From assembly GCF_036634195.1 (NCBI RefSeq), contig NZ_JAZIFY010000001.1, forward strand, positions 3,048,501 through 3,112,500: 64,000 nt of DNA. The letters are read 5' to 3'. Every line of letters starts with the position of its first letter. Positions within the stretch are counted from its first letter, which is position 1. Under the pieces are notes generated by a model. The model did not search any database. It was not told the DNA's origin and saw only the letters and a program-made list of their open reading frames with translations. The translations under genes and the position numbers were made by a program. The stretch comes from Streptomyces sp. P9-A4 (GTDB lineage Bacteria; Actinomycetota; Actinomycetes; Streptomycetales; Streptomycetaceae). Positions 11,630 to 34,310 of this stretch are shown piece after piece.

Positions 11630-12424
11630 TCAGGCCGCGAGGGCCGGGGCGGCCGTCGCCGGGGCGGTGGCCGCGGGGGCGGTCTCGTACAGGGCGGGGA
11701 TACGGGTGGGCAGCGAGCCCCAGGTCTCGGGGGTGTAGAAGTGGCCGCCCGGCAGCACGTCGTGGCGGTACTCGCCGGCGGCGAGGTCGCGCCACTGCTC
11801 GGCGGCGCGCGGGTCGATGACCTCGTCGGCATCCCCGTTGATCACCTGGACCGGCACGGAGACCTGGGCGCCGTCGCGGTAGTAGAAGGTGTCGCGGATG
11901 CGCACGTCCGCGCGCATCAGGTCGAGCGCCATCTCGCGCAGGTCCGGGTCGTCCAGGACGTGCTGCGGCAGCAGCCCGAACGTCTCCATCCAATGCATGA
12001 TCTGCTCGTCGGTGTCCCGCTGCGCGGGGAACATGTCCTGGACGGTGAGACCCCGGCTCGGGGCGTTCGCGGAGGAGACGACCAGAGCCTTGGGGAGCGG
12101 GCCGCCACGCTCCTCGATGCGGGCGGCGACGTCGAAGGCCATCCAGCCGCCCATGCTGTGGCCGAAGAGGACGTAGTCCCGGTCGGCGGCGGAGAGCACG
12201 GCAGCCACGGCGTCCTCGGCCAGCTCGTCCCAGTTGTCGGGGCAGTCCTCGGCGAACCGGCCCTCACGGCCGGGGTAGCAGATCGCGGCCAGTTCGACGC
12301 CCTCGGGCAGCACGTCCGCCCAGGGCATGTACGAGCCGGCGCCGCCGCCGCAGAAGCCCAGGCAGATGAGCCTCAGGCGCGCGTCGGGGTCCTGCCGGGG
12401 GCGGACCACAATGGTGTCCTGCAC
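11630..12424 (-). CDS. type II (editing) thioesterase
   Basis: A 264-residue alpha/beta hydrolase of the NRPS/PKS type II thioesterase group. The nucleophile is in GHSMGG (about residues 89-94), the oxyanion region in GFCGGGAGSY, the Asp in NGDADEVIDP and the His in GGHFY (about 230). These free enzymes remove wrongly loaded or stalled acyl groups from carrier domains, which would matter here because two carriers are loaded in trans. The C-terminus ends in an Ala/Thr/Pro-rich tail. Start GTG at 12424 is preceded by AAGGA. It lies between the A-T didomain (34 bp) and the hydroxylase (18 bp) in the operon. Confidence 0.9.
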   Translation of the reverse strand: MQDTIVVRPRQDPDARLRLICLGFCGGGAGSYMPWADVLPEGVELAAICYPGREGRFAEDCPDNWDELAEDAVAAVLSAADRDYVLFGHSMGGWMAFDVAARIEERGGPLPKALVVSSANAPSRGLTVQDMFPAQRDTDEQIMHWMETFGLLPQHVLDDPDLREMALDLMRADVRIRDTFYYRDGAQVSVPVQVINGDADEVIDPRAAEQWRDLAAGEYRHDVLPGGHFYTPETWGSLPTRIPALYETAPAATAPATAAPALAA

Positions 12425-14303: not shown

Positions 14304-14362
14304 GGAACACGCTCCTTGGTACGGGAGGGTCGGGTGGGGCGGGGATGGTGTGGTGGCGCGGC

Positions 14363-16570: not shown

Positions 16571-16610
16571 GAGGGGTCTCACCGTTTCTTGGCTGATGGC
16601 GGGTGGTCGT

Positions 16611-17828
16611 TCAGGGGAGGAGGCGGGCGCGGGCCGCCGCGAGGATCTGCGGGGAGCGGTTGAAGGCCACGCGGACGTAGTTCCGGCCGCGCTCCTCGTC
16701 GGCGAAGAACGGCGTGCCGGGGGCGAGGAGGACGGAGGACTCCTCCAGGACGCGGCGGACGAAGGTCCGGCAGTCCTCGTCCGTGGCTCCGCGGATGTCG
16801 GCGAGGACGAAGCAGCCTCCCTCCGGCAGCCGGAAGGTGAGCCCCATCCGGGCGAGGATGTCCGCCGTCTCGTCGCGGGCCTGGGACAGCTCCTTCGCGG
16901 CCGTGAGGGAGGCCGCGTCGAAGAGGTCGGTGAGGCCCGCGGCCAGCTGGAGCGGGGCGCCGGCGCCGTTGGTGGTGATCTCGTGGACCCGCCGGAAGAC
17001 CCGGGTGAGTTCCGGCCGGGCCCGCAGGAACCCGAGCCGCCAGCCGCTGATGGCGTGGCTCTTGGAGAGCGAGCCGACGACCACGCTGCGGTCCCGCAGG
17101 GAGGGGACGTCGGCGACCGAGAGGTGCGGGCGGTCGTCGAAGACGAGGTTGGCGTACACCTCGTCGGAGATGACCGTCACGTCCCACCGCTCGCACAGTG
17201 CGGCGATCCGCTCCAGGTCCTCCGCCGACAGGGTCTGGCCCGTCGGGTTGGCCGGGGTGTTCAGGATGATCGCCCGGGTGGCGGGACCGAAGGCCGCGGC
17301 CAGCTCGTCCGGGTCGAGCCGCCAGTCGGGGCTCACCGGCCCCTCCGGCTCGTGGAGGCGGACGAACTTCGGCCGGGCGCCCGCCAGTTCGACGGCGCCG
17401 AGGAAGTTCTCGTAGTACGGGTCCAGGAGGACGACCTCGTCGCCCGGGTCGACCAGCGAGAACAGCGCCACGCACAGCGCCTCGGTGCCGCCGACCGTGA
17501 CGGTCAGCTCGGTGTCCGGGTCGGCGGGGGTCGTGAAGGACTCCGCGATCCGGCGGCGGATGTCCGCGCCGCCGTGGGGCAGTTCGTACTGGTTGACGCC
17601 GCCGCGCAGGGCCCGTACGGCCTCCTCGACGAGGGGCTTCGGGGTCTCCGGCGCGCCGGGCGTGCCCACGGCCAGGTCGATGGCGCCGCGCTCGCGGGCC
17701 AGCAGGAACAGCTCCGCGAGGTTGCCCTTGGGGATGCGCCCGGCCCGCTCGGAGACGGCCGCCCGGCCGCCCGTCGCGGTCGCGGACACCGCCGTGGCGG
17801 TCTCCGCCGTGGCGGTCTCCGCCGTCAC
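16611..17828 (-). CDS. PLP-dependent class I/II aminotransferase
   Basis: A 405-residue fold-type I aminotransferase. The PLP lysine is in SLSKSHAISGWRLG (about residue 255), the pyridine Asp region is ISDEVYANL and NTPANPTG binds the phosphate/substrate. The GTG at 17828 overlaps the leuD stop (GTGA), showing translational coupling. The first 20 residues repeat TAETATA and look like a loose tail. Placed between leuD and leuB, it probably aminates the 2-oxo acid made by the leu enzymes. It is unrelated to IlvE-type (fold IV) branched-chain aminotransferases, again suggesting a special product. Substrate is inferred only from context. Confidence 0.88.
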   Translation of the reverse strand: MTAETATAETATAVSATATGGRAAVSERAGRIPKGNLAELFLLARERGAIDLAVGTPGAPETPKPLVEEAVRALRGGVNQYELPHGGADIRRRIAESFTTPADPDTELTVTVGGTEALCVALFSLVDPGDEVVLLDPYYENFLGAVELAGARPKFVRLHEPEGPVSPDWRLDPDELAAAFGPATRAIILNTPANPTGQTLSAEDLERIAALCERWDVTVISDEVYANLVFDDRPHLSVADVPSLRDRSVVVGSLSKSHAISGWRLGFLRARPELTRVFRRVHEITTNGAGAPLQLAAGLTDLFDAASLTAAKELSQARDETADILARMGLTFRLPEGGCFVLADIRGATDEDCRTFVRRVLEESSVLLAPGTPFFADEERGRNYVRVAFNRSPQILAAARARLLP

Positions 17829-18463
17829 GAGGCCCGCCGGAGCTTCGCCGCGTCCGGGGAGGAGAAGGTGCCGCGGGTGATGCTGGTCATCCAGGCCGGC
17901 CGGCGCTCCTCGAAGGCGGCGATCACGTCGGCCTTGCGGAGGGTCACGTCGATGTCGTCGAGGCCGTTGAGGAGGAGCCAGCGCGCACGGTGGTCCGCCT
18001 CGAACTCCCAGCTCCGGCCGTCGGCGGTGACGGTCAGCTCCTGGAGGTCGACGGAGATCCGGAACTCCGGGTCGGCGAGGGACAGTTCGGCCAGCTCGGC
18101 GACGACGTCCACCGGCAGGGCCACCGCGAGGAGGCCGTTCTTCAGGGCGTTGCGCAGGAAGATGTCGCCGAAGCTGGTGGCGATGACCGCACGGAAGCCC
18201 CAGTCGCGCAGCGCCCACACGGCGTGCTCGCGCGAGCTGCCCGTACCGAAGTTGTGTCCCGCGACCAGGACGCTGGCGCCCTGGTGCTCCGGCCGGTTCA
18301 GGACGAAGTCGGGCTCCTTGCGCCAGTGGCCGAACAGGGTGTCGGCGTAACCGGACTTGGTGAGCCGCTTGCAGAACTCGGCGGGGATGATCTGGTCGGT
18401 GTCGACGTCGTCCCTGCTCAGCGCCACGGCCTGGCCGGTGTGCGCCTTCATCGGCTCTCTCAT
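17825..18463 (-). CDS. leuD: 3-isopropylmalate dehydratase small subunit
   Basis: A 212-residue swivelling-domain subunit of the aconitase family. [16 protein letters not shown] and [17 protein letters not shown] are the signature segments of LeuD; the second binds substrate. It partners with the LeuC-like protein encoded immediately upstream to isomerise 2- to 3-isopropylmalate or a homologue. The ATG at 18463 overlaps the leuC stop by four bases (ATGA); a second ATG at 18451 is possible. The separation into two subunits is typical of bacterial LeuCD. Confidence 0.92.
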
Positions 18464-19911
18464 GCCTGGTCCTCCTGCTCGTTCTTCGGGTCGGTCAGCT
18501 CGCTCGGGGTGGCCAGTCGCCCGACGACGGCGGTGGCGGCGGCCACCACGGGCGAGACCAGGTGGGTGCGGGCGTGGGTGCCCTGCCGGCCCTCGTAGTT
18601 GCGGTTCGAGGTGGAGGCGACGCGCTGGATGCCCTGGAGGCGGTCGGCGTTGATGCCCATGCACATCGAGCAGCCGGAGAGCCGCCACTGCGCACCCGCG
18701 TCCAGGAAGACCTGGTGCAGGCCCTCCTCCTCGGCCTGGGCGCGGACGGCCATCGAGCCGGGGACGACGAGCATCGTGATCGACGGGGCGACCTTGCGGC
18801 CGCGCAGCACGTCGGCCGCGGCCCGCAGGTCCTCGATGCGGCCGTTGGTGCAGGAGCCGAGGAAGACCGTGTTGATGTCGATGTCCCGCATCGGCACGTG
18901 CGCTTCGAGGCCCATGTACTCCAGGGCGCGGCGCGCCGCCGCCCGCTCGGCGTCGCTGCCGAAGGACTCGGGGGCGGGGACCTCGGCGTCCAGCGGTACG
19001 GCCTGGCCGGGGTTGGTGCCCCAGGTGACGAAGGGCTTCAGCCCGGTGACGTCGAGCTCCACGACCCGGTCGAAGGCGGCGCCCTCGTCGGTCCGCAGCG
19101 AATCCCAGTAGGCGCAGGCCTCCTCCCACTCGGCGTCCGCGGCCGGGTCCCAGCGCTCGCGCAGGTAGTCGACCGTCTTGTGGTCCGGGGCGATGAGACC
19201 GGCGCGGGCACCGGCCTCGATGCTCATGTTGCAGACCGTCATCCGCCCCTCCATGGAGAGGTTCTCGACGGCCTTGCCGCGGTACTCGATGGCGTAGCCG
19301 TTGGCCCCGTTGGCCCCGATGTGGGCGATCAGCGCGAGGATCAGGTCCTTGGGCGTCACGTCCGCCGGCGGCTCGCCGACGAACTCGACCGACATGGTCC
19401 TGGGCCGCTGGAGGGCCAGCGTCTGGGTGGCGAGGACGTGCTCGACGTCGCTGGTGCCGACGCCGAAGGCGAGGGCGCCGAAGGCGCCGTGCGTGGAGGT
19501 GTGGCTGTCGCCGCACACCACGGTCATGCCGGGGCGGACGAAGCCCAGCTCCGGTGCCACGACGTGCACGATGCCCTGCCGGTCGTCGCCCAGCGAGAAC
19601 AGCTCGATGCCCTGGTTCTCGCAGTTCTCGCGGAGCCGCTCCAGCTGTGCGCTGCCCATCGCGTCCTTCACGAACAGCGTGTTGGTGGGCACGTTGTGGT
19701 CTTCCAGGGCGAGCGCCAGGTCGGGTCTGCGGACCCGGCGTCCGGTGAGCTGGAGGCCGTCGAAGGCCTGCGGCGAGCTGGCCTCGTGGAGCAGGTGCAG
19801 GTCGATGTAGAGGAGGTCGGGTTCGCCCGGCGCCCGGTCGACGACGTGGTTCTCCCACACCTTCTCGATCAGGTTGCGCTCGGCGCGTTCCGGCTGCGTG
19901 ATGGTGCTCAT
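18460..19911 (-). CDS. leuC: 3-isopropylmalate dehydratase large subunit
   Basis: A 483-residue aconitase-family large subunit. The [4Fe-4S] ligands are visible: one Cys in GSCTNG (about 354) and the CxxC pair in SGCSMCMGI (about 417 and 420). [19 protein letters not shown] and [12 protein letters not shown] are family hallmarks. It works with LeuD to shift the hydroxyl group of an isopropylmalate-type substrate. It overlaps the leuA stop by four bases (ATGA), so leuA, leuC, leuD and the aminotransferase are all translationally coupled. It is slightly longer than usual, with an acidic KNEQEDQA tail. Confidence 0.92.
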
Positions 19912-21131
19912 CGGCCGGCCACCGCCATCTCGGTGGTCGTGGCGGCGGCAGCGGCGGTCGCCGAGGCGCGCAGCAGCCGGCCGGTGATGATCTCGCGCAG
20001 GTCGCCCAGCTCGATGCAGGTGCCGTCCGCGCGGTTGGCGATGTAGGTGTCGTAGATCTCGTCGAGCAGGTCGCGCTCGACGCCCAGACCCATCTGGTCG
20101 AAGAGGTTGCGGATGACGTTGCGTCCGGAGTGCCGGCCGATGAGAATTCCGCGGTCGCGGCCGAAGAGGTGCGGCTCGACGTATTCGTACGTCACCGGGT
20201 TGCGCAGCATTCCCGCCTGGTGGATTCCGGCCTGCGTGGCGAATGCGTTGTCACCGAATACGGCCTTGTTGCGCGGCGTCGACATTCCGATGATCCGGCT
20301 GAGGATCAGATAGGCGTCGTACAGCTTCTCGGTCTGGAGACGGCTGGTCACACCCAGCAGCTCGCCCTTGTAGAGAAGGACGGCGGCCAGTTCTTCGAGG
20401 GGGGTGTTTCCGGCACGCTCACCGATTCCGGCGAGCGTCGACTGCACCTCGTCCGCGCCCGCCTCGATACCGGCGAGGGCATTGGCGAGGGAAAGTCCGA
20501 GGTCCTGGTGGCAGTGCGTGGAAAGGATGACGTCGTCGGGGATCCAGGAGCGGACCCGGGCCACCTGGGCGCCGTATTCCGACGGGAGCATGCAGCCGGT
20601 GGTGTCGGCGAGCGCGACGGTCTTCGCGCCCTCCGCGACGCCCGCCTCGATCAGCGGGCGGAGCAGGTCGTCGGTGCCGCGGCTGGAGTCCTCGATGCCG
20701 AGCGTGATGTCGGTGAAGCCGAGCTCACGGGCGAAGCGGATGCTGTCGATGATCTCTTGCAGGCCTTCGGCCCTGGTCAGACCGCGCTTGTGCTCCAGGT
20801 GGACATCGCTGCCGGTGGCCATGATCTGGACCTGGTGGTCGATGCCGCCGGCCTCGGCCGCCAGCTCGATGTCCTCGCGGACCGCACGGTTGAGGGTGGC
20901 GACCTTGGCGGTGGTGAGCGCCTCGGCGATCAGCTTGGTGGCCAGGAAGTCGCTCGGGGAGGAGCTGGGGAAGCCGGCCTCGATGGTGTCGACGCCGGTG
21001 GCCTCGATGGCGAGGGCCAGTTCCAGCTTCTGCTCCGCGTTCATCGCGTTGCCGGGGGCCTGCTCTCCGTCGCGGAGAGTCGAGTCGAATACGCGAAGCC
21101 GACGTGCCGGGGAGTTGGGGCTCGAAGTCAT
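19908..21131 (-). CDS. leuA: 2-isopropylmalate synthase-like enzyme lacking the regulatory domain
   Basis: A 407-residue acetyl-CoA-dependent condensing enzyme (DRE-TIM barrel). [14 protein letters not shown] (about 14-27) and the metal-binding HCHQDLGLS (about 204) are intact; the tail includes GIHQAGML and GRHSGRN. Canonical LeuA is about 510-570 residues and ends in a leucine-binding allosteric domain; here the protein stops soon after the barrel and linker helices, so feedback inhibition by leucine is probably absent. That suits a dedicated precursor pathway. It is the first gene of the operon; GAGG lies 8 bases before the ATG. It could use 2-oxoisovalerate or a longer or different 2-oxo acid. 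Homocitrate synthase is a less likely alternative. Confidence 0.88.
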
Positions 21132-21263
21132 GATTCTGCCTCTTTCGGGAACGCCGCCATGAGACACAGGATCCGGAGATCTCACTGTGTGGTAGCGGGG
21201 GCTTGTGGCCGACGGCGGTGACTTTACGCGGCCGGGAACGCAGCCCGTCAAGCCTTTTCCGCA

Positions 21264-21307: not shown

Positions 21308-21363
21308 GAGCTACAAGCGCGCATTTCCCTATGCATCGAGTGGCGAATCAAGGAGTGATTTTA

Positions 21364-24300
21364 ATGGGCGAATTCTCTTCCGAGGCACGCCTTCTTTCTC
21401 GAATGCGGCGTGCGGGTGCTGCGGTTCGGATCGGCCGCCGCGCGGAGGGGGTGCGGGAGGTTCCGCTGTCCTTCGCGCAGCAGCGCCTGTGGTTCCTCGA
21501 CCAGCTGGATCCGGGGAGCGCGGAGTACGTGGTGCCGACGGCGTTCCGGGTGCGGGGTCCGCTGGACCCGGCGGCGCTGAGCACGGCGCTCGATGCCCTG
21601 GTCGTACGCCATGAGGTGCTGCGGACCCGGTTCGCGACCGGCCCCGAGGGCGACCCGGTGCAGATCGTGGAGGAGCCCTGGCATGTGGCCGTCGAGCAGC
21701 TGGACCTGGGCGGGGCCCCGGATCCGGAGGAGGCCGGCCGGGCGATCGTCGAGTCCTTCGGGCACCGTCCGTTCGACCTGGCCGACGGGCGGCTGCTGCG
21801 GGCGATGACCGTCCGCCTCGGCGAGGACGACCACCTCCTCGCCCTCGCCATGCACCACATCGTCGTCGACGGCTGGTCGATGGGCGTCCTGGTGGAGGAA
21901 CTACGACGCCTCTACACCGGGGACTCATCCCTCGAAGAACTCCCCATTCAGTACGCGGACTTCGCGCTCTGGCAGCAGAAGCAGCTGTCGGGCGACGCCC
22001 TCGGCAAGCACCTGGACTACTGGCGGACGCAGCTGGCCGGCCTGGAGACCCTGGAACTCCCCACGGACCGCCCCCGTCCCCGTATCCGCTCCGGCGCCGG
22101 AGACACCCACGCCTTCACCGTCCCCGCCGACACCACCACCGCCCTGCGCGAACTCGCCGCCAGGAACAACGCCTCCCTCTTCATGACCGGCCTCGCCGTC
22201 TTCCAGCTCGTCCTGGCCCGCTGGAGCGGACAGAACGACATCACCGTCGGCGTCCCCATCGCCGGCCGCAACCGCACCGAACTCGAAGACCTCGTCGGCT
22301 TCTTCGTCAACACCCTCGTCATGCGCACCGACATCACCGCCGAAGCCACCTTCACCACCATCCTCGACCAGGTCCGCCGAACCACCCTCGACGCCTACGC
22401 CCACCAGGACCTCCCCTTCGAACGCCTCGTCGAAGACCTCACCCCCGACCGCGACCTCAGCCGCAACCCGCTGGTGCAGGTGGGCTTCAGCGTGGAGGGC
22501 GCGTCCTCGGACCCGTGGGAGATCCCCGGTCTGACCATGCGGCCGGTCGCGGTGAGCTCGAAGGTGTCGAAGGTCGACGTGTCGGTGTTCCTGACGGAGG
22601 AGGCGGACGGCACCCTCTCGGGCGAGGCGACCTTCGCGACGGAGCTCTTCGACACGGAGACGATCGAGCGGCTGACCGGTCACTTCCTCACCGCCCTCGC
22701 CGACGTCTGCCACGACCCCGAGCGCCGCGTCGGTGACATCCAGCTGCTCACCCCGGCCGAACAGCACCAGATCCTGAGGGACTTCAACGACACCACCGTC
22801 GACTACGCCGACGACACCACCGTCCACCGCCTCTTCGAGCAGCAGGCCGCGCTCGCCCCCGAGGCGCTCGCCGTCGTCCACGGCGACAGCTCGTACACGT
22901 ACCGGCAGCTCAACGAGCGGGCCAACCGGCTCGCCCACCACCTCATCGACCGGGGCGTCACCACCGACACCCTCGTGGGAATCTCCCTCGGCCGCGGGAT
23001 CGACATGATCACCGCGCTGCTCGCGGTCCTCAAGGCCGGCGGCGCGTACGTCCCCCTCGACCCCGACAACCCGCCCAACCGCCTCGCCTTCATGCTGGAG
23101 GAGACCCGGGCGCCGCTCGTCCTCACCCACTCGGACCTCGCCCCGCGCCTGGAGCACACCCCGACGCCCCTCGTCCTCCTGGACCGGCTCGCCCTCGACG
23201 ACCGGCCCGCGGACAACCCCGTCACCCCCACCGGCGCCCGGGACCTCGCCTATCTGATCTACACGTCCGGCTCCACGGGCACCCCGAAGGGCGTGCAGAT
23301 CGAGCACCGCTCCCTGTGCCGGCTGATCTCCAACAACTGGTTCCACACGATCACCGCCGACGACGTCGTCTCCCAGATCCTGAACTTCGCCTGGGACTCC
23401 TTCGCGCTCGAATGCTGGCCGGTGCTCACCTCCGGCGCCACGATGGCGATCCTGGACCCGAAGGTCCTCGCGGGCAGCGAGCCCTTCGCGGAGGCGCTGG
23501 TGCGCCACTCCGTCACGACCGCGCTCATCCCGACACCACTGTTCAACCAGTACCTGGTGGAGCGCCCGGACCTGCTGAAGGACCTGAAGTCCGTCTTCTA
23601 CGGGGGTGAGGCCGGCGACCGTTCGATCGCGGACGCGCTGCTGTCGGGTCCGTACGCCCCGGGGCGCCTCGCGCACCTCTACGGGCCGACGGAGGCGGGC
23701 GTCGTCGCGACCGGTTTCGTGGTGGACGAGAACCGGCCGGGCACCACCTCCATGCCGATCGGCTCACCGGTGGCCAACACCCAGGTCCTGGTCATCGACC
23801 GGCACGGTGGTCTCGCTCCCGTCGGCGTCCCCGGTGAGCTGTGGATCACGGGTCCCGGTCTCGCCCGCGGCTATCTCGACCGTCCCGAACTCACCGCCGA
23901 CCGCTTCACCACCACTCACCACACGGCCGAGCCCACCCGTGCCTACCGCACCGGCGACCTCGTCCGCCGGCTCCCCGACGGCACCATCGAGTACCTCGGG
24001 CGGATCGACAACCAGGTCAAGATCCGGGGCCTCCGCATCGAACTCGGAGAGATCGAGGCCACCCTCACCACCCACCCCCACATCAACCTCACCACCGTCA
24101 TCGTCCGAGAGGACACCCCCGGCGACAAACGACTCACCGCCTACTACACGACCCCCACGAACACCCCCCACAGCTCGGGCGATCTCCGTGCGCACTGCCG
24201 CACCCACCTTCCCGACTACATGGTCCCCAACTACTTCGTCCACCTCGCCAAGCTCCCCACCACTCCCAACGGCAAGGTCGACCGCCGCGCTCTCCCCGCC

Positions 24301-27300
24301 CCGACCGTCACCGCCGACACCACCAGCCACACCCCGCCCCGCACCCCCACCGAGACCACCATCACCACCATCTGGGCCGAAACCCTCAACACCCCCCTCG
24401 GCATCCACGACAACTTCTTCGACCTCGGCGGCCACTCCCTCCTCGCCACCAAGGCCGCCAACCGGATCGGCCAGGCGCTCGGCGTCGAGGTCTCCGTCCG
24501 CCGGCTCTTCAGCAACCCGACGGTGGCCGAGCTGGCCGCGAGCCTCGCCGAGTGCGAGGAGCTGACCGTCGCCCCGATCACCCGCCGGGCGGAGGGGGTA
24601 CGGGAGGTCCCGCTGTCCTTCGCGCAGCAGCGCCTCTGGTTCCTGGACGAGCTGGATCCGGGGAGCGCGGAGTACGTGGTGCCGACGGCGTTCCGGGTGC
24701 GGGGTCCGCTGGACCCGGCGGCGCTGAACTCGGCGCTCGATGCCCTGGTCGTACGGCACGAGGTGCTGCGGACCCGGTTCACGACGGGCGCGGACGGCGA
24801 CCCGGTGCAGGTGATCGACGAGCCCTGGCACGTCGGGATCGAACACGTCGACCTCACCGGCACTCCGGAAACCGGCACTCCCGAAGGCGTCGCTCCGGAG
24901 GCCCTCGAAGCCGGTCGCGCCGCCGTCGAGTCCTTCGGCGAGCGTCCCTTCGACCTCTCCGCCGGCCGTCTGCTGCGGGCGATGACCGTCCGCCTCGGTG
25001 AGGACGACCACCTCCTCGCCCTCGCCATGCATCACATCGTCGTCGACGGCTGGTCGATGGGCGTCCTGGTGGAGGAACTACGACGGCTCTACGCCGGTAC
25101 GTCACTGACCGAACTGCCGCTCCAGTACGCGGACTTCGCGCTCTGGCAGCAGGACCAGCTGACCGGTGACGCGCTGGACGGGCACCTGGACTACTGGCGG
25201 ACGCAGCTGGCCGGCCTGGAGACCCTGGAGCTCCCCACGGACCGCCCCCGTCCCCGTATCCGCTCCGGCGCCGGAGACACCCACGCCTTCACCGTCCCCG
25301 CCGACACCACCACCGCCCTGCGCGAACTCGCCGCCAGGAACAACGCCTCCCTCTTCATGACCGGCCTCGCCGTCTTCCAGCTCGTCCTGGCCCGCTGGAG
25401 CGGACAGAACGACATCACCGTCGGCGTCCCCATCGCCGGCCGCAACCGCACCGAACTCGAAGACCTCGTCGGCTTCTTCGTCAACACCCTCGTCATGCGC
25501 ACCGACATCACCGCCGAAGCCACCTTCACCACCATCCTCGACCAGGTCCGCCGGACCACCCTCGACGCCTACGCCCACCAGGACCTCCCCTTCGAACGCC
25601 TCGTCGAAGACCTCACCCCCGACCGCGACCTCAGCCGCAACCCGCTGATCCAGTCGATGTTCGCCCTGCAGAACCTGCCGGTGCAGGACTGGAGCCTGCC
25701 GGGGACGACGGTCGAACTGCTCCAGACCTCGGGGCGGACCTCGAAGTTCGACGTCTCCGTCTTTCTGACGGAGGAGTCGGACGGGACCCTGTCCGGTGAG
25801 GCGACCTTCGCCACCGAACTGTTCGACGCGGCCACCGTCGAGCGGCTGACCGGTCACTTCCTCACCGCCCTCGCCGACGTCTGCCGCGACCCCGGGCGCC
25901 GCGTCGGTGACGTCCAGCTGCTCACCCCGGCCGAACAGCACCAGATCCTCGACGAGTTCAACGACACCACCGTCGACTACCTCGACGACACCACCGTCCA
26001 CCGCCTCTTCGAGCAGCAGGCCGCGCTCACCCCGGACGCCCTCGCCGTCGTCCACCACGACGCGACCCTCACCTACCGGCAGCTCAACGAGCGGGCCAAC
26101 CGGCTCGCCCACCACCTCATCGACCGGGGCGTCACCACCGACACCCTCGTCGCGCTCTGCCTGGACCGCGGGGTCGACATGATCACCGCGCTGCTCGCGG
26201 TGCTCAAGGCCGGCGGCGCGTACGTCCCGCTGGACCCCGACACCCCGGCCTCCCGGCTGGCCTTCATGCTGGAGGAGAGCGAGACCCCGCTCGTCCTCAC
26301 CCACTCGGGGCTCACCGGCCGTCTCGACCACACCCCCACCCCGCTGCTCGCCCTCGACCGGTTCGACTTCGACGCGTTCCCCGCGCACGACCCGGTCACC
26401 CCGACCGGGCCCCGGGACCTCGCGTACGTCATCTACACCTCCGGCTCCACGGGCACCCCGAAGGGCGTGCAGATCGAGCACCGCTCCGTCTGCCGGCTGC
26501 TGATCAACAACTGGTTCAACACGATCGGCGCCGAGGACGTCGTCTCGCAGACGTGCAACTACTGCTTCGACGTGTTCACGTACGAGTGCTGGGGCGCCCT
26601 CATCACGGGCGCGGCGCTCGCCGTCGTGGACAAGGAGGAGCTGTCCGACTCCGACGCGCTCGCCGCCGCGTTCCGCCGGGACCGGGTGACGGTCGCCTGG
26701 CTGACGGCCCCGCTGTTCAACCAGCATGTGTCCGAGCGGCCGGACCTGGTGGCCGGGATGAAGACGGTGATGTACGGCGGTGAGGCCGTGGACCGCGCGG
26801 TCGCCGACGCCCTGATGTCAGGGCCGTACGCCCCCGGCACCCTGATCAACGGATACGGGCCCACCGAGGCGACCGTCTTCGCGACCTGCTTCGTGGTGGA
26901 CGAGAACCGGCCGGACATGACGACGATGCCGATCGGCCGTCCGATCTCCAACACCGGCAACCTGGTCGTGGACCGGCACGGCGGCCTGGCGTCCATCGGC
27001 GTCCCCGGCGAGCTGTGGATCACCGGCCCCGGCCTCGCCCGCGGCTACCTCAACCGCCCCGAACTCACCACCGACCGCTTCACCACCACCCACCACACTT
27101 CCGAGCCCACCCGTGCCTACCGCACCGGCGACCTCGTCCGCTGGCTCCCCGACGGCACCATCGAGTACCTCGGGCGGATCGACAACCAGGTCAAGATCCG
27201 GGGCCTCCGCATCGAACTCGGAGAGATCGAGGCCACCCTCACCACCCACCCCCACATCAACCTCACCACCGTCATCGTCCGAGAGGACACCCCCGGCGAC

Positions 27301-28620
27301 AAACGACTCACCGCCTACTACACGACCCCCGCCAACACCCCCCACACCTCCAGCGACCTCCGCGCCCACTGCCGCACCCACCTCCCCGACTACATGGTCC
27401 CCAACCACTTCGTCCACCTCGCCAAGCTCCCCACCACTCCCAACGGCAAGGTCGACCGCCGTGCCCTCCCCGCGCCCACCCTCACCACCGGCGACACCAC
27501 CAGCCACACCCCGCCCCGCACCCCCACCGAGACCACCATCACCACCATCTGGGCCGAAACCCTCAACACCCCCCTCGGCATCCACGACAACTTCTTCGAC
27601 CTCGGCGGCCACTCCCTCCTCGCCACCAAGGCCGCGAAGCGCCTGCGGAACGCCGGGCTGGACGTGACGGTGCGGCAGATCATGCAGTGGCAGACCGCCG
27701 CCGAACTGGCCGCCGCCCTCGGGGCCGGGACCGACCTGACCGGACTCCACAGCGCCAGGCAGGACGGCTCCGACCCCCTCGTCTACAAGCTGTCGGCCGG
27801 CCCGGCCGACCCCGCGCTCCCGACCGTGTTCTGCGTCCACGCCAGCGGCGGCACCCCGAACGCCTACGGGCAGCTCGCCCGTCTGCTGCGCGCCGACTGC
27901 ACCACGTACGGCATCCAGGCCGTCGGCATGGACCGCTCCGAACTGCCGCTGCGGGACATCCGGGCCATCGCCGAGCGGTACTGGGAGGCCGTCAAGTCCG
28001 TGCAGCCCGAAGGGCCCTACTACATCCTCGGCTGGTCGCTCGGCGGTGTCGTCGCCCATGAGATCGCCCGCCAGGGAGCGGCCGAGACCGCCACGGTCTT
28101 CCTGGTGGAACCGCCCGTCCACGGCCCGCGCCTGGAGCAGCGGCTGCGGCCCGGCGTCGAGCTGTACGGCCGGGCGGCGGAGCTGTGGGCGCGCGGCCAG
28201 GACGCCGATCCGGAGACCAGAGCGGCCCTGGAGGCCGAACTCCGAGCGCTCACCGGCCCCTTGGAGGTGCCGGCCGACTCGGTCGGGCTCGACGAGTGGC
28301 TGCCGTACGAGACCCTCGGTCTGCTCCTCGACGCCCTGCTGGGGCACCGGCCCGAGGTGTCGGCCGCCCCGGCCGTGCTCTTCGTGAGCGACGAGGTCGC
28401 CTTCAGCCAGGAGGGTTCCGTCGCGAACGAGCGCGACCTCGCCGAGTACCTCGGCCACTGGCAGGCGCTCCACACCACCGCCCCGGCGGTGGAGCGGACG
28501 CCCGGCGACCACGGGGCGATGATGACGGAGCTGCCCGCCATCGAGAAGGTCGCGAAGGTGCTCCGTACCTTCCTCACCCCGTCCCCGACCCCTGAGAACG
28601 TGACCGAGCAGGTGGGCTGA
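21364..28620 (+). CDS. nonribosomal peptide synthetase 2: C-A-T-C-A-T-TE (terminal)
   Basis: A 2418-residue two-module NRPS. Order: C1 (HHIVVDG about 164), A1 (YTSGSTGTPKG about 632), T1 (GGHSLLA about 1022), C2 (about 1222), A2 (about 1690), T2 (about 2080), thioesterase (GWSLGG, Ser about 2225; His in GDHGAM near the end). Specificity residues by eye are D-S-L-L-F-G-L-V-V for A1 (no match recalled) and D-V-Y-W-M-G-G-V-F for A2 (Val/Ile-like). The TE would release or cyclise the chain, so this is the last synthetase. AAGGAG lies 8 bases before the ATG at 21364. The two modules share long stretches of almost identical DNA, a sign of recent duplication or gene conversion. It starts divergently from leuA, with a SARP box between. 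Confidence 0.93.
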   Translation: MGEFSSEARLLSRMRRAGAAVRIGRRAEGVREVPLSFAQQRLWFLDQLDPGSAEYVVPTAFRVRGPLDPAALSTALDALVVRHEVLRTRFATGPEGDPVQIVEEPWHVAVEQLDLGGAPDPEEAGRAIVESFGHRPFDLADGRLLRAMTVRLGEDDHLLALAMHHIVVDGWSMGVLVEELRRLYTGDSSLEELPIQYADFALWQQKQLSGDALGKHLDYWRTQLAGLETLELPTDRPRPRIRSGAGDTHAFTVPADTTTALRELAARNNASLFMTGLAVFQLVLARWSGQNDITVGVPIAGRNRTELEDLVGFFVNTLVMRTDITAEATFTTILDQVRRTTLDAYAHQDLPFERLVEDLTPDRDLSRNPLVQVGFSVEGASSDPWEIPGLTMRPVAVSSKVSKVDVSVFLTEEADGTLSGEATFATELFDTETIERLTGHFLTALADVCHDPERRVGDIQLLTPAEQHQILRDFNDTTVDYADDTTVHRLFEQQAALAPEALAVVHGDSSYTYRQLNERANRLAHHLIDRGVTTDTLVGISLGRGIDMITALLAVLKAGGAYVPLDPDNPPNRLAFMLEETRAPLVLTHSDLAPRLEHTPTPLVLLDRLALDDRPADNPVTPTGARDLAYLIYTSGSTGTPKGVQIEHRSLCRLISNNWFHTITADDVVSQILNFAWDSFALECWPVLTSGATMAILDPKVLAGSEPFAEALVRHSVTTALIPTPLFNQYLVERPDLLKDLKSVFYGGEAGDRSIADALLSGPYAPGRLAHLYGPTEAGVVATGFVVDENRPGTTSMPIGSPVANTQVLVIDRHGGLAPVGVPGELWITGPGLARGYLDRPELTADRFTTTHHTAEPTRAYRTGDLVRRLPDGTIEYLGRIDNQVKIRGLRIELGEIEATLTTHPHINLTTVIVREDTPGDKRLTAYYTTPTNTPHSSGDLRAHCRTHLPDYMVPNYFVHLAKLPTTPNGKVDRRALPAPTVTADTTSHTPPRTPTETTITTIWAETLNTPLGIHDNFFDLGGHSLLATKAANRIGQALGVEVSVRRLFSNPTVAELAASLAECEELTVAPITRRAEGVREVPLSFAQQRLWFLDELDPGSAEYVVPTAFRVRGPLDPAALNSALDALVVRHEVLRTRFTTGADGDPVQVIDEPWHVGIEHVDLTGTPETGTPEGVAPEALEAGRAAVESFGERPFDLSAGRLLRAMTVRLGEDDHLLALAMHHIVVDGWSMGVLVEELRRLYAGTSLTELPLQYADFALWQQDQLTGDALDGHLDYWRTQLAGLETLELPTDRPRPRIRSGAGDTHAFTVPADTTTALRELAARNNASLFMTGLAVFQLVLARWSGQNDITVGVPIAGRNRTELEDLVGFFVNTLVMRTDITAEATFTTILDQVRRTTLDAYAHQDLPFERLVEDLTPDRDLSRNPLIQSMFALQNLPVQDWSLPGTTVELLQTSGRTSKFDVSVFLTEESDGTLSGEATFATELFDAATVERLTGHFLTALADVCRDPGRRVGDVQLLTPAEQHQILDEFNDTTVDYLDDTTVHRLFEQQAALTPDALAVVHHDATLTYRQLNERANRLAHHLIDRGVTTDTLVALCLDRGVDMITALLAVLKAGGAYVPLDPDTPASRLAFMLEESETPLVLTHSGLTGRLDHTPTPLLALDRFDFDAFPAHDPVTPTGPRDLAYVIYTSGSTGTPKGVQIEHRSVCRLLINNWFNTIGAEDVVSQTCNYCFDVFTYECWGALITGAALAVVDKEELSDSDALAAAFRRDRVTVAWLTAPLFNQHVSERPDLVAGMKTVMYGGEAVDRAVADALMSGPYAPGTLINGYGPTEATVFATCFVVDENRPDMTTMPIGRPISNTGNLVVDRHGGLASIGVPGELWITGPGLARGYLNRPELTTDRFTTTHHTSEPTRAYRTGDLVRWLPDGTIEYLGRIDNQVKIRGLRIELGEIEATLTTHPHINLTTVIVREDTPGDKRLTAYYTTPANTPHTSSDLRAHCRTHLPDYMVPNHFVHLAKLPTTPNGKVDRRALPAPTLTTGDTTSHTPPRTPTETTITTIWAETLNTPLGIHDNFFDLGGHSLLATKAAKRLRNAGLDVTVRQIMQWQTAAELAAALGAGTDLTGLHSARQDGSDPLVYKLSAGPADPALPTVFCVHASGGTPNAYGQLARLLRADCTTYGIQAVGMDRSELPLRDIRAIAERYWEAVKSVQPEGPYYILGWSLGGVVAHEIARQGAAETATVFLVEPPVHGPRLEQRLRPGVELYGRAAELWARGQDADPETRAALEAELRALTGPLEVPADSVGLDEWLPYETLGLLLDALLGHRPEVSAAPAVLFVSDEVAFSQEGSVANERDLAEYLGHWQALHTTAPAVERTPGDHGAMMTELPAIEKVAKVLRTFLTPSPTPENVTEQVG
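22008..22473 (+). repeat. internal direct repeat A, copy 1 (C1 domain)
   Basis: This 466-bp stretch recurs 3174 bp downstream (25182-25647). Two substitutions were found by eye. It encodes the second half of the condensation domain. Much closer than protein conservation requires. Confidence 0.85.
23969..24160 (+). repeat. internal direct repeat B, copy 1 (A1 C-terminal subdomain)
   Basis: Nearly identical to 27143-27334, again at an offset of 3174 bp. After a short variable stretch the similarity resumes at 24316-24458 against 27493-27635 (offset 3177) through the carrier domain. Confidence 0.8.
25182..25647 (+). repeat. internal direct repeat A, copy 2 (C2 domain)
   Basis: Second copy of the repeat at 22008-22473. 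The sequence diverges sharply after the codons for SRNPL, where the C-domain end and A-domain core begin. Confidence 0.85.
27143..27334 (+). repeat. internal direct repeat B, copy 2 (A2 C-terminal subdomain)
   Basis: Second copy of 23969-24160. The A-domain cores between repeats A and B differ, so specificity pockets have been kept apart while flanks were homogenised. Confidence 0.8.
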
Positions 28621-28622
28621 GC

Positions 28623-28961
28623 ATGCTGAACGTCATCGCGGAAGCACTGGAGAGCGTCCACGGACGCAGCGCCGTCGGGCTGAACGCCCGCCTCGAATCG
28701 CTCCTCGACAACGAGTGGGTGCTGCTCGCCGAGCGCAGGACGGACGAGGAGGGCCGGATCGACGAGTGGGGTCACGCGGGCGGGCACCGGGGGGTCTACC
28801 GGATCGTCTTCGACGTCGACCGGTACTTCGCCGGCCTGGGGCTGACCCCGGGGTATCCCGAGGTGTCGGCCACGTTCCGCGCCTCGGAGGAGGGGGCGGG
28901 ACACCGGGTGACGCTCACCTTCTCGCCCCACCGGTACGCGGCGGTCCTGAGCTCGTCGTGA
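28623..28961 (+). CDS. transthyretin/5-hydroxyisourate hydrolase-like protein without catalytic residues
   Basis: A 112-residue protein starting two bases after the NRPS 2 stop, so co-translated with it. It aligns along its whole length with 5-hydroxyisourate hydrolase (HIUase): GRxAxGLxxRLE, WxLLAERRTDEEGRI, GVYRIVFDVDRYF, YPEVSATF and a final SPHRY strand. The HIUase His of the first strand is replaced (Glu by my alignment), the HYHVP strand reads HRVTL, and the C-terminal YRGS is replaced by VLSSS. The TTR fold is probably kept but urate-pathway hydrolase activity is not. No purine catabolism gene is nearby. Its place suggests a role in making or binding the peptide. It is not MbtH-like. 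Function unknown. Confidence 0.75.
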   Translation: MLNVIAEALESVHGRSAVGLNARLESLLDNEWVLLAERRTDEEGRIDEWGHAGGHRGVYRIVFDVDRYFAGLGLTPGYPEVSATFRASEEGAGHRVTLTFSPHRYAAVLSSS

Positions 28962-29008: not shown

Positions 29009-32000
29009 TCAGCCCGCCGTGGCCACCGCGTCCTGGTCCGCCGTCTCCGTGAGGCGGGCGAGGACGCGGCCCGCCGCCTCGGGGGCCATCGTGGCCGTCA
29101 GCTCCCGTACGTCGGCCAGGGCCCGTCCCGCGGCCTCGGGGTCGCCGGCCGCCAGGTGGGCGGCATGCAGCAGGACCAGTGCGCCGGCCTCCTGGGCGGG
29201 GGTCTCCATCTGCCGGAACAGCGGCAGCACCCGGGTCAGATGGGCCACGGCCCGGCCCGGCTCCCCGATGGCGAGCGCCAGTTCGCCGAGGGTCACCAGG
29301 GTCCGGCCCATGACGAGGCGTTCGTCGGAGGACTCGGCGAGGACGAGGGCGCGGTGCAGCGCGTCGGCGGCCTCGGCGGTCTCGCCCCGGCGGAACCGGG
29401 CGGAGCCGATGCCGTGCAGGGCGTAGGCCTCGCCGGTGTGGTCACCGATGAGCCGGACCACCTTGTGGACCTCGGTGAAGGCCTCCAGGGCCTCGTCGTA
29501 CTCGCCGCGCTCCAGACGGGTCTGGCCCATCCGGTGCAGCACCTGCGCCTCGACGCGACGGCCGCGGCCCTCCCGGCTGAGCCGGAGGGCCTCGTCGAGG
29601 AGGGGCCCGGCGGCGTCCTCGTCGCCGCTGCCCAGCCTGAGCTGGGCGAGGTTGTGCAGGACGTAGGCGACGGCGACGGTGCCGTCACTCTCGCGGAAGA
29701 CCTTGAGTGCCGCCTCGTAGTGGGCGGTCGCCTCCTCGGCGCGGCCGTGCAGCCGGGCGAGGTAGCCCAGGCCGCGGGCGGCGAGGGCGGAGCCGAGCGC
29801 GTCACCGATGCCGTCGAAGATCTCGGCGGAGTGCCGGAAGTGGGTCTCGGCGGCGGCGAAGTTCTGCTTCGTCACGGCGAGCGAACCGAGGGACTGGAGC
29901 GTGGCGGCCTGGCCGAGCAGGTCACCGCCCTTGCGGGCGGCGGCGAGGGCGACCTCGTGGGTGTCGCGCCAGTCGTCGAGCCGTACATGGGTCTCCAGGA
30001 ACGTCACCGCGGTCACGGCGAGACCCCAGCAATGCGCGGTGAGCCCCATCATGGCGGCCTGCCGGACGCTCGGAAGCAGCATCTGGCGCTCCCGGGCGAA
30101 CCACTGGAGGGGCTCGGCCAGGATGCGGTCCACGGTCCTGTCGGGCAGCGGATGAAGGGGCACGTCATGGCTGCGGATCAGCACGTCCTGCCCGTACTCG
30201 CGGTGCCGCGCCTCGGTCATCAGGAAGAGGAAGCAGCCGAGCACCCGGGCCAGGGCGGCCTCGCGCGCCTCCACGGTCTCCTCGTCGGCGAGCCGTTCGC
30301 GGGCGAAGACCCGGATGAGGTTGTGCAGTTGGTACTGGGAGTGGCGGCCGGTCGCGGTTCCCGCGGTGTCCACGAGCTGCGCGTCGGAGAGTTCGTCGAT
30401 CAGGTCCCGTACCGGCGCTTCGGAAAGGTCGAGCAGCGCCATGCCGGTCCACGCGGAGAACGGGCCCTCCTCGACGACGGCCAGCCGGCGGAAGAGCCGC
30501 CGGGCGTCCTCGCTCACGCTGTCGTACGTGAGGGAGAGGCTGGCCCGGATGCCGACGTCCGCGTAGTTCAGCTCGTCGAGCCTGCGGGTCTCGTCCTCCA
30601 GGCGCTCGACCAGCTCCGCGACCTCCCAGTGGGGGCGGGCGGCGAGCCGGGCGCCCGCGATGCGCAGCGCGAGCGGGAGGTGGCCGCAGAGTTCGGCGAG
30701 GTCGGCGGTGGCCTCGGGTTCGGCCTCGACGCGTTCGGCGCCGGTGATGCGGCCGAGGAGTTCGGCGGACTGCGCGGGCCCGAAGGTGGTGACGTCGACG
30801 CGGACGGCTCCGGCGAGGCTCCCGATGTGTCGGCGGCTGGTGACGATGACCGCCGAGGTGGGCTTGCCCGGCAGGAGCGGTTTGATCTGGCTCTCGCCCG
30901 CGACGTTGTCGAGGACGATCAGCATGCGGCGCTCGGCGAGCAGCGCCCGGTACATCTCGGCCCGTTCCTCCAGGCCGTCGGGGATGGCGGTGCCGCTGAC
31001 GCCGAGGGCGCGGAGGAAGCGTTCGAGGATCTGGGCGGGGCCGACCATGTCGGGGGCGCCGCCGTGCAGGTCGGCGAAGAGCTGCCCGCCGGGGAACTCG
31101 GCGGCGACCTCGTGGGCCACGTGGACGGCCATCGCGGTCTTGCCGACGCCGGCCTTGCCGACGATGGAGACGATGGGCACCGCCAGCCGGGACTGGTCGT
31201 GGGAGCAGAGGAGCAGCCGTTCCCTGATGCCGGCGACCAGGTCGTCGCGGCCGGTGAAGTCGGCGATGTCGGCGGGGAGCATCTCCGGTACGGGCGCGGC
31301 GGGAGCGGCTGCCTCGGTGGCGGCTGCCGGGGCCTCGGGGGCGGCGGCCTTGCGGGTGCCGGGGAGGTCGAGCCGGGGGTCCGTGGCGAGGATGGAGTGT
31401 TCGAGGCGTTTGAGGCGGGGGTCGGGTTCCACGCCGAGTTCGTCGATCATCCACTGGCGGGTGTCCCGGTAGACCTGGAGGGCCTCGGTCTGCCGCCCGG
31501 AGCGGTAGAGCGCCAGCATGAGCTGTCCGCGCAGCCGCTCGCGGAGCGGGAACTCGTCGACGAGGCCGAGGAGTTCGCCGACGAGCGCGCTGTGTTTGCC
31601 GAGCGCCAGCTCCAGCTGGATGCACTCCTCGGCGGCGGCGGTCCGCTGCTCGGTGAGCTTGCCCGCGCCGGAGCGGACGACCTCGCTGTACATCCCTTCG
31701 AGGGCGACCCCGCGCCAGAGCCCGAGCGCCTGGCGGTACGTGGCGGCGGCCTCCCCCCGCTGCCCGGCGTCGCGGAGCTTGCGCGCCCTGCCGACGAGTC
31801 CGCGGAAGTGGAGGGCGTCGAGGTTCTCGTCGGCGGCGCGGACCATGTAGCCCTGCGGGTGGGTGGTGATGACGTCGGAGACCCCGTGGTTGCCGAAGAG
31901 GCGGCGGAGGGCGGAGACGCTGATCTGGAGCTGGGCGCGGGCGGTGGCCGGCGGGGCCTCCTCGTAGACGGCGCGGACGAGCCGGTCGACGCCGACGACG

Positions 32001-32140
32001 CGGTTGGCGTCGAGGAGGAGGGTGGCCAGCACGGTCTGCTGGCGGATGCCGCCGAGATTGAGCGGGGTGGAGTCGACGGTGGCTTCGAGTGGGCTGAGAA
32101 CGCGGTACTCGACTCTCGGTCCTGGTTCGGATTGCACCAC
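29009..32140 (-). CDS. SARP-family activator with NB-ARC ATPase and TPR domains (AfsR-like)
   Basis: A 1043-residue regulator. Residues about 10-95 form an OmpR-like winged helix, about 100-250 a bacterial transcriptional activator (BTAD) domain, about 290-560 an NB-ARC/STAND NTPase with P-loop GKAGVGKTAM (about 330), and about 700-1030 a run of TPR helices. Large SARPs activate antibiotic clusters by binding heptamer direct repeats and recruiting RNA polymerase. Such repeats occur upstream of NRPS 2 and of the small secreted peptide, so it is the likely cluster activator. GTG at 32140 or 32137 is the start, with GGGGGAG upstream. It is convergent with the NRPS 2 operon and divergent from the ArsR-like gene. 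Confidence 0.92.
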   Translation of the reverse strand: MVQSEPGPRVEYRVLSPLEATVDSTPLNLGGIRQQTVLATLLLDANRVVGVDRLVRAVYEEAPPATARAQLQISVSALRRLFGNHGVSDVITTHPQGYMVRAADENLDALHFRGLVGRARKLRDAGQRGEAAATYRQALGLWRGVALEGMYSEVVRSGAGKLTEQRTAAAEECIQLELALGKHSALVGELLGLVDEFPLRERLRGQLMLALYRSGRQTEALQVYRDTRQWMIDELGVEPDPRLKRLEHSILATDPRLDLPGTRKAAAPEAPAAATEAAAPAAPVPEMLPADIADFTGRDDLVAGIRERLLLCSHDQSRLAVPIVSIVGKAGVGKTAMAVHVAHEVAAEFPGGQLFADLHGGAPDMVGPAQILERFLRALGVSGTAIPDGLEERAEMYRALLAERRMLIVLDNVAGESQIKPLLPGKPTSAVIVTSRRHIGSLAGAVRVDVTTFGPAQSAELLGRITGAERVEAEPEATADLAELCGHLPLALRIAGARLAARPHWEVAELVERLEDETRRLDELNYADVGIRASLSLTYDSVSEDARRLFRRLAVVEEGPFSAWTGMALLDLSEAPVRDLIDELSDAQLVDTAGTATGRHSQYQLHNLIRVFARERLADEETVEAREAALARVLGCFLFLMTEARHREYGQDVLIRSHDVPLHPLPDRTVDRILAEPLQWFARERQMLLPSVRQAAMMGLTAHCWGLAVTAVTFLETHVRLDDWRDTHEVALAAARKGGDLLGQAATLQSLGSLAVTKQNFAAAETHFRHSAEIFDGIGDALGSALAARGLGYLARLHGRAEEATAHYEAALKVFRESDGTVAVAYVLHNLAQLRLGSGDEDAAGPLLDEALRLSREGRGRRVEAQVLHRMGQTRLERGEYDEALEAFTEVHKVVRLIGDHTGEAYALHGIGSARFRRGETAEAADALHRALVLAESSDERLVMGRTLVTLGELALAIGEPGRAVAHLTRVLPLFRQMETPAQEAGALVLLHAAHLAAGDPEAAGRALADVRELTATMAPEAAGRVLARLTETADQDAVATAG

Positions 32141-33008: not shown

Positions 33009-34310
33009 ATGACCGCGGAGGCGGCAACCGCAGCGGAGCCGACGGAGCTCGACGACACGAAGCCCCTGCGCAAGAACAGGGACTTCACGCTGCTCTGGGG
33101 AGGCCAGACCGTCTCCCAGCTCGGCACCGCCGTCTCCGTCCTCGCGTTCCCCCTGCTCGTCCTGGCCCTGAACGGCTCCGCCGTGCAGGCCGGCGCCCTC
33201 GGCACCCTCCAGGCGGTCATCCGGGTCACCTTCCAGCTCCCGGCCGGCGCGTTCGCCGACCGCTGGAACAGGAAGCGCGTCATGCAGGTCTGCGACGCGG
33301 GCCGGGCGGTCCTCTTCGCGGCCCTCGCCACGGCGATCCTGCTCGACAGCGCGCCCCTCGCGGTGATCTTCGCGGTCGCCGGGGCCGCCGCCGTCCTGGA
33401 CGTCCTCTTCGGCGCGGCCGAGACGTCGATCGTCAGCCAGCTCGTCCCCCGCTCGCAGCTCCCGGAGGCCTTCGCGAGCAACGAGGCCCGCTCGTACGGA
33501 GCCTCCCTGGCCGGCCCGCCGCTGGGCGGCTTCCTGTACGCGTTCGGCCGCTCGGTCCCGTTCCTCTTCGACGCCCTCAGCTACCTGCTGTCGTTCCTGG
33601 CGGTCTCCTTCATCCGCAGGCCCGCCGACCCCAAGGGGGAGCAGGAGAAGGGCGAGGGCGCCGCGAAGAAGGCCTCGCTGCGGCACGACATGCTGGAAGG
33701 ACTCCGGCACGTCGTCGCGAGCCCCTTCCTGCGCGCGGTGATCCTGATGGCCGCGCCGGTCAACTTCGCCCTCACGGGTGCCCAGTTCGCATCCGTGCTG
33801 ACCCTCACCGAGAGCGGCCACAGCCCCCGCGCCCTCGGCATCGCGCAGGGCTGCATCGCCATCGGCGGCCTTCTCGGTGCCCTCTTCGCGGCCCGCATCC
33901 AGCGGCTCCTGCCCTTCCACCGCCTGCTGCTCACGGCCCTGACGGCCCTGGTGGTCCTGCTGGCGGCGAGCACCGTCCTCAACGGCAGCCTGGCGATGGT
34001 GGCCCCGCTGGCCACGGGCCTGTTCCTGGCCCCCGCCGTCAACTCGATCCTCTTCGGCCGGATCGCCGCGACCACCCCGGCCCACATCCAGGGCCGGGTC
34101 ATCAGCGTCGTCGCCCTCTCGGCCACGGCGGCGGCCTCCCTCGCCCCGATCGTCGTCGGCGCGGTGGTCGAGCACCGGGGCGGCACGGCGGCCATGACGG
34201 CGGTGCTGGCCGCCGCGGTCCTCTCGCTCGTGGCAGCCACCCTGACCCGCAGGACCCTCCGGGAGTCCGCCCCCGCCCAGACGCCGCCCCCCATGTGCCA
34301 GTCGGTCTAA
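33009..34310 (+). CDS. MFS efflux transporter
   Basis: A 433-residue major facilitator with about 12 hydrophobic segments and the loop motif GAFADRWNRKRVM between helices 2 and 3. A charged stretch around residues 205-225 (PKGEQEKGEGAAKK) is the central cytoplasmic loop. It resembles the enterobactin-exporter/macrolide-efflux branch of MFS. GAGGGGG precedes the ATG. Following a probable local repressor at the edge of an NRPS cluster, it is a candidate exporter or self-resistance pump, though it could be independent. Its stop overlaps that of the convergent lipoprotein gene by a few bases. Confidence 0.88.
   Translation: MTAEAATAAEPTELDDTKPLRKNRDFTLLWGGQTVSQLGTAVSVLAFPLLVLALNGSAVQAGALGTLQAVIRVTFQLPAGAFADRWNRKRVMQVCDAGRAVLFAALATAILLDSAPLAVIFAVAGAAAVLDVLFGAAETSIVSQLVPRSQLPEAFASNEARSYGASLAGPPLGGFLYAFGRSVPFLFDALSYLLSFLAVSFIRRPADPKGEQEKGEGAAKKASLRHDMLEGLRHVVASPFLRAVILMAAPVNFALTGAQFASVLTLTESGHSPRALGIAQGCIAIGGLLGALFAARIQRLLPFHRLLLTALTALVVLLAASTVLNGSLAMVAPLATGLFLAPAVNSILFGRIAATTPAHIQGRVISVVALSATAAASLAPIVVGAVVEHRGGTAAMTAVLAAAVLSLVAATLTRRTLRESAPAQTPPPMCQSV

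Follow-up and report, generated by a model that had tools for sequence, protein, structure and literature searches.

The window analysed here, a stretch of 64,000 nucleotides from Streptomyces sp. P9-A4, contains a short gene for a transthyretin (TTR)-like protein that lies between the terminal NRPS of a biosynthetic cluster and a large SARP/AfsR-type STAND regulator (Table 1). The open reading frame encodes 112 amino acids and starts with an ATG two bases (GC) after the NRPS stop codon at 28618–28620, as the original prediction had described, and its codon composition is of the coding type (third-position GC 0.94). The SARP gene is convergent with it, with 47 bases between the two; a consensus scan found no terminator in this gap, and the GC hairpin present there is no better than those of shuffled sequences (z −0.54). 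The NRPS genes and a leu-type cassette at 15533–21251 (LeuA without the regulatory domain, LeuC, LeuD, LeuB and an aminotransferase) place the gene in a secondary-metabolite locus, as had also been proposed. Judging from its gene content, the cassette suggests that a chain-elongated amino acid may be a building block of the product. Two further open reading frames, at 36080–38344 (754 amino acids) and 39904–42024 (706 amino acids), have a coding-type composition and no Pfam match; the former is conserved in Root1304 (95%).

Table 1. Features of the window, and PW-tailed open reading frames of related loci (numbered within the locus named)
Feature	Position	Strand	Remark
Phosphopantetheinyl transferase	3933..4757	-	
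NRPS, two C, one A and three T domains	5326..10764	-	
Aspartyl/asparaginyl beta-hydroxylase family protein	10865..11611	-	
Stand-alone thioesterase	11630..12424	-	
Stand-alone A-T didomain	12459..14675	-	True start probably near 14278
TauD-family dioxygenase	14363..15445	-	
LeuB-like dehydrogenase	15533..16582	-	
PLP aminotransferase	16611..17840	-	Start uncertain
LeuD-like isomerase small subunit	17825..18463	-	
LeuC-like isomerase large subunit	18460..19911	-	
LeuA-type HMGL (isopropylmalate/homocitrate synthase-like)	19908..21251	-	No regulatory domain found; start uncertain
Terminal NRPS, two C, two A and two T domains plus thioesterase	21331..28620	+	
Transthyretin-like protein	28623..28961	+	HIUase catalytic residues lost (E7, R45, R95, VLSS end)
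Large SARP/AfsR-type STAND regulator	29009..32140	-	Trans_reg_C, BTAD, NB-ARC, TPR (Pfam); start uncertain
MFS transporter	33009..34310	+	Common to the Root1304 and NRRL S-87 loci
PW-tailed ORF	L060:19231-19437		
PW-tailed ORF	L081:10530-10745		
PW-tailed ORF	L082:9192-9374		
PW-tailed ORF	L084:9353-9541		
PW-tailed ORF	L085:10418-10549		
PW-tailed ORF	L086:8894-9073		
PW-tailed ORF	L009:14064-14249		
PW-tailed ORF	L008:14070-14282		
PW-tailed ORF	L100:9009-9242		
PW-tailed ORF	L101:9004-9309		

The only match of the TTR-like protein in a Pfam scan is PF00576, over residues 8–106 (1.7e-14; 54.8 bits against a gathering cut-off of 25.3), which makes it a full-length member of the HIUase/transthyretin family and bears out the end-to-end family assignment made from the sequence at the outset. 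A transthyretin fold is predicted, with strand A of the modelled monomer starting at residue 3. The PF00576 cut-off was also passed by all ten other SARP-linked proteins scanned. Against the HIUase equivalog TIGR02962, the window protein scores 54.1 bits, below the cut-off of 87.45. No UraD or uricase relatives were found in the window (blastp, 1e-15), consistent with the claim that it lacks a purine-degradation context. The same genome encodes a second, canonical HIUase with HYHVP and YRGS (contig 1, 6165175) that is flanked by UraD and uricase, as read from the sequence and from marker matches in L058. With this complete canonical locus present, urate chemistry is covered elsewhere in the genome. 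A role as an MbtH replacement was rejected: it has no sequence support, the protein has no MbtH domain match, and the single MbtH match of the genome is on contig 2.

A protein search with the window protein returned 11 close relatives, those with a name coming from Streptomyces or Kitasatospora, and the protein is kept across these two genera (17 aligned rows). A scan of genome contigs gave seven loci with six clear relatives; L010, a 36% partial match, yielded no TTR row. A second protein search, with a query from outside the Streptomycetaceae, returned 33 relatives, those assigned to a genus coming from Streptosporangium, Microbispora, Planomonospora, Sphaerisporangium, Sphaerimonospora, Herbidospora, Microtetraspora and Nonomuraea, the genera from which the label “Streptosporangiaceae-type” (family f17) is taken. 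With the TTR profile, matches came from 42 of the 394 family genomes (E 0.001) and from 59 of the 394 class genomes (E 1e-10), counts that do not represent the SARP-linked share among all HIUase-family genes, the profile having been built from SARP-linked proteins. The loci compared are the places from both profile searches plus added named records. They hold 113 TTR rows: 85 urate-linked, 25 intact SARP-linked, the broken SARP-linked copy of L002, which is kept outside the 25, and two canonical rows, L156 and L164, with neither a urate nor a SARP neighbour (L164 with only 1.1 kb on one side). Repeat loci (13 names, six of them too short to scan) and eight short second domains were left out. 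The 25 consist of eight rows of the window clade, nine Streptosporangiaceae-type rows, five of a PKS type (L053–L057), the two genes of L104, and L172; the rows are mutually related, and their counts are not independent events.

A large SARP with BTAD, NB-ARC and TPR domains lies within 1.4 kb of the TTR gene in 25 of the 27 intact rows that have no urate gene within 5 kb, and these SARPs are 42–97% identical to that of the window. (The pair of MJM8645 is split over L048 and L049, and the SARP end adjoins the TTR gene in L048.) Neither UraD nor uricase was found within the 5 kb flanks of the other 24 SARP-linked rows, and a SARP match was absent from the flanks, about 5 kb a side and some shorter, of 84 of the 85 urate-linked rows; the exception is L137, where a SARP fragment lies 4.1 kb away, at the limit of the sequence fetched, and this row was kept in the urate-linked group. 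Both kinds of TTR gene occur in six Streptosporangiaceae-type genomes. The split between SARP-linked and urate-linked genes is close to complete across three taxonomic families, and homologues are not confined to urate loci, since the nearest ones lie outside them. In a plasmid collection with 73 records matching the SARP, the three records at an identity of at least 50% all carry a TTR gene, one of them being the frameshifted copy of L002. Seven large SARPs were fetched at 38–43% identity; one has TTR genes (L104, with two copies), and the other six have no TTR match within 6 kb. The tblastn search of the plasmids missed the TTR genes of L104, so that absence by tblastn in other plasmids is weak evidence.

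The neighbour of the TTR gene that stays constant is the large SARP regulator and not the NRPS. Recruitment to peptide biosynthesis, the main idea of the original prediction, is not supported as the leading explanation, since the surroundings range from NRPS through PKS-NRPS and PKS to no megasynthase at all. Window-like loci on named plasmids share a common core of leu-type cassette, NRPS, TTR and convergent SARP. A megasynthase ends two bases before the TTR gene in five of the eight Streptomycetaceae loci of the window clade (the window, Root1304, NRRL S-87, NBC_00868 and NBRC 109706, where it is a different one, a PKS-NRPS); the gene is not immediately preceded by one in MJM8645, MAA19 or S. 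mesophilus. The TTR gene lies between leuA and the SARP gene in MJM8645 and MAA19, and adjoins the SARP without leuA or a megasynthase in S. mesophilus. A LeuA-type gene is found near TTR in five of the eight Streptomycetaceae loci (that of NRRL S-87 is cut by the contig end), in the pseudogene locus L002 and, as an IPMS-type gene, in eight of nine Streptosporangiaceae-type loci. No LeuA-type match was found in the fetched flanks of L008, L009, L053–L057, L086, L104 and L172. These loci rule out LeuA as the constant partner, and the L008 and L009 genomes have an ordinary leuC only. Cluster-type leuC is absent from the S. mesophilus and NBRC 109706 genomes, where the best matches (63–65%) are ordinary leuC genes on other contigs.

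The SARPs of the Streptosporangiaceae-type loci (L079–L086) and of Nonomuraea gerenzanensis (L060) are 48–55% identical to that of the window. An LAL regulator is found near TTR in nine of nine Streptosporangiaceae-type loci and in L104, and in most of the former, DUF1702 genes and an FG-GAP protein follow. The Nonomuraea locus, the one covered far enough, also has a KS-AT-KR-DH PKS, and we take this set of genes to be enediyne-like. In five other Streptomycetaceae genomes (L053–L057; SARP identity 44–47%), the pair adjoins modular-type PKS genes, with KS motifs in all five. L172, from another family, has a divergent TTR gene 303 bases from the SARP, with neighbours that read as the housekeeping genes etf, cysteine desulfurase and an mnmA-like gene, and no biosynthetic gene was recognised in 10 kb.

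Two plasmid loci differ from the rest. On the NBC_01237 plasmid (L104), a SARP at 42–43% identity is followed by two different TTR-like genes, at 9021–9350 and 10044–10406, of which one has Cys and Glu at the sites of the catalytic His pair, and the other Arg and His. On S. violaceusniger pSTRVI01 (L002:20001–20340), the TTR gene carries a frameshift and the annotation breaks both the SARP and the terminal NRPS into shorter pieces, a picture suggestive of a decaying cluster.

A biosynthetic role, in which the TTR-like protein would bind or convert a pathway intermediate, such as the product of the leu-type cassette or the peptide released by the NRPS, is unlikely but keeps a minor share of our belief on account of the two-base coupling to a megasynthase and the frequent LeuA-type neighbour, which makes a metabolic link possible. 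The arginine corresponding to Arg47 of the urate-linked relatives is also kept in 18 of the 25 SARP-linked rows, so an anionic ligand could still bind. However, the coupling is missing from three of the eight Streptomycetaceae loci, two of the genomes lack the cluster-type leuC, and the pair persists in the five PKS loci and in L172, outside any recognised cluster, with no LeuA match in their flanks.

The active site of the enzyme kpHIUH comprises His7, His92, Arg41 and the C-terminal Tyr-Arg-Gly-Ser, according to the available excerpt of PMC8272043, and the portion of PMC4324301 at hand states that rapid 5-HIU hydrolysis by Salmonella TLP is lost in the H6A, H95A and Y108F mutants. As the original prediction had noticed, these residues are altered in the window protein. 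Compared with the urate-linked relatives, His9 is replaced by Glu7, His98 of HYHVP by Arg95, and YRGS by VLSS; Arg47, retained as Arg45, is the only residue of the catalytic set that is kept. The full H/R/H/YRGS set is present in none of the 25 SARP-linked rows and in 77 of the 85 urate-linked ones (the other eight are seven split domains that were partly read and one YKGS). His9 and His98 are each kept in five of the 25. L053–L057 have His9 in all five and His98 in four, and so these proteins may still be catalytic. Arg86 of the window protein, by contrast, is present in 23 of 25 SARP-linked versus four of 85 urate-linked rows (seven of the 85 are gapped there), and Trp49 in 20 of 25 versus 15 of 85. 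Public records call the SARP-linked proteins hydroxyisourate hydrolase, a label that is probably wrong for this group. The window protein thus differs from HIUases (TIGR02962; kpHIUH, PucM and Salmonella TLP) in both catalytic His residues and the tetrapeptide Tyr, in its score below the equivalog cut-off, and in being SARP-linked instead of urate-linked. A still active HIUase that had simply moved into the cluster was set aside on the basis of the residues, the TIGR02962 score and the separate, complete urate locus.

A retained or changed hydrolase, whose rebuilt site (Glu7, Arg45 and Arg95) would open a cyclic imide or lactam ring, urate-like or otherwise, to supply a signal or precursor, is quite improbable. 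The pocket positions are conserved within clades, with Glu at the first His position and Arg95 in eight of eight rows of the window clade and Gln at the first position in eight of nine Streptosporangiaceae-type rows, but position 95 is Arg, Gln or Gly in a wider set of the window clade. In addition, all three positions that Salmonella TLP needs for rapid hydrolysis, by the same excerpt (PMC4324301), are changed in the alignment, and the genome already has its canonical HIUase locus.

The distances between SARPs and those between their TTR-like neighbours are correlated, with r 0.91 over 24 pairs, 0.81 within the eight Streptomycetaceae and 0.87 within the nine Streptosporangiaceae-type pairs, values reached by 0 of 2000 permutations in each case. 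The SARP and TTR trees, which are quick trees, have their main groups in common and largely agree. By SARP, L172 belongs with L053–L057 (support 98); by TTR, it joins the other set (83). The placements of L060 and L104 also differ. The SARP of L104 groups with two plasmid SARPs that have no TTR gene (support 92, long branches); the TTR-bearing SARPs are therefore not one clade, and gain or loss of TTR has happened. In the two closest TTR pairs, dN/dS is 0.14 (window versus Root1304) and 0.11 (MJM8645 versus MAA19), which suggests purifying selection; the values of 0.31–1.08 in the remaining 26 pairs are unreliable owing to GC bias and small numbers. That the gene is a passenger, a duplicated HIUase carried along next to the SARP without a related function, would fit the one broken copy, the frameshifted gene of pSTRVI01 beside a SARP annotated in pieces, but is very improbable in view of the 25 of 26 SARP-linked copies that are open over the whole domain, the low dN/dS of the two closest pairs, and the retention of the gene in three taxonomic families beside changing genes.

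The reading favoured here, to which we give about even odds (a probability of roughly 0.5), is that the window gene encodes a pseudo-HIUase that has kept the transthyretin fold, has lost the urate chemistry, and works as a partner dedicated to the large SARP activator encoded beside it. It draws directly on the family, the predicted fold, the residue loss, the separation from urate loci, the constant SARP adjacency and the largely matching trees. The original prediction was right in seeing an altered TTR-family protein outside purine degradation and overlooked the link to the SARP regulator. The constant adjacency suggests that an old enzyme may have become part of an antibiotic switch. The TTR-like protein would be made together with the biosynthetic genes, would assemble as the usual tetramer, and would bind the SARP at its NB-ARC or TPR region, thereby keeping it off or tuning it. 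The block would then be lifted by the SARP’s own inducer or by a ligand that occupies the former active-site channel. We infer the loss of activity, the tetramer, the physical contact, the ligand, and inhibition rather than activation. A gate, or feedback inhibitor, fits because a dead HIUase is encoded both with the structural genes and beside the regulator; the data would also suit a co-activator or a ligand-presenting subunit. Several points run counter to the partnership: neighbouring genes share their inheritance, which by itself accounts for part of the agreement between the trees, the window TTR gene is coupled to the NRPS and not to the SARP, and to these come the tree mismatches, the frequent LeuA-type and LAL neighbours, the His residues kept in L053–L057 and the six fetched large SARPs with no TTR match.

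Such a feedback gate would be analogous to that of MalY and Aes on MalT. The folds of MalY and Aes are presumably unrelated to the TTR fold, and the comparison is one of working principle only: an enzyme fold acts on a STAND activator, as is proposed for the TTR-like protein. Unlike MalY and Aes, the TTR gene sits beside the regulator gene, and its putative partnership shows in genomic linkage. In the accessible part of PMC10427625, MalT is described as a STAND activator inhibited by MalY, a PLP enzyme, and by Aes, an esterase. AfsR has the same domain order as the window SARP; its SARP domain is under restraint from NOD and TPR until ATP lifts it, and inducer binding by the sensor domain is described as an elusive point, as far as the available text of PMC10936776 goes. 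The vertebrate transthyretins offer another comparison, as one of the two changes thought to have made them from the enzyme is a Tyr to Thr substitution (PMC4324301, in the portion at hand). The window protein differs from them in being bacterial and in being linked to a transcription activator. The Tyr concerned is presumably that of the tetrapeptide. The SARPs described here belong to lineages with a TTR-like neighbour, unlike AfsR, for which we know of no such neighbour.

Short open reading frames whose products have an export-like start and a short tail that finishes with -PW- (NPWG, TPWG, NPWD, DSPWE repeats and DDPWV repeats) also adjoin large SARPs (Table 1). A motif rule that was chosen after examples had been seen finds 11 of them in the 62 kb that flank SARPs; the remaining 1502 kb of the 115 loci scanned contain 10. 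Nine of them were scanned and have no Pfam family above the cut-off; none was found beside the window SARP. Nothing on such genes beside SARPs appears among the literature matches listed. They may be exported peptides that signal to the TPR part.

Taken jointly, and more tentatively than the partnership itself, these observations would mean that Actinobacteria, independently of vertebrates, made the HIUase fold into a non-enzymatic regulator. A two-gene module of SARP and TTR would gate clusters of different chemistry and would also occur outside clusters, and the TTR channel or the TTR–SARP complex, perhaps with exported PW-tailed peptides, would be the sensor that large SARPs were missing. 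No report of a TTR–SARP pairing or of a non-urate role is found among the matches listed from the open-licence literature. What is new, as far as the literature was searched, is the pairing together with the non-urate role; the fold and both families, Pfam and regulator, had been described before.

A small conserved protein encoded beside the regulator offers a way to test what large AfsR-type regulators sense. If the reading is true, the TTR-like protein would be a further case, beside vertebrate transthyretin, of an HIUase turned non-enzyme, and it would provide a handle for waking silent clusters.
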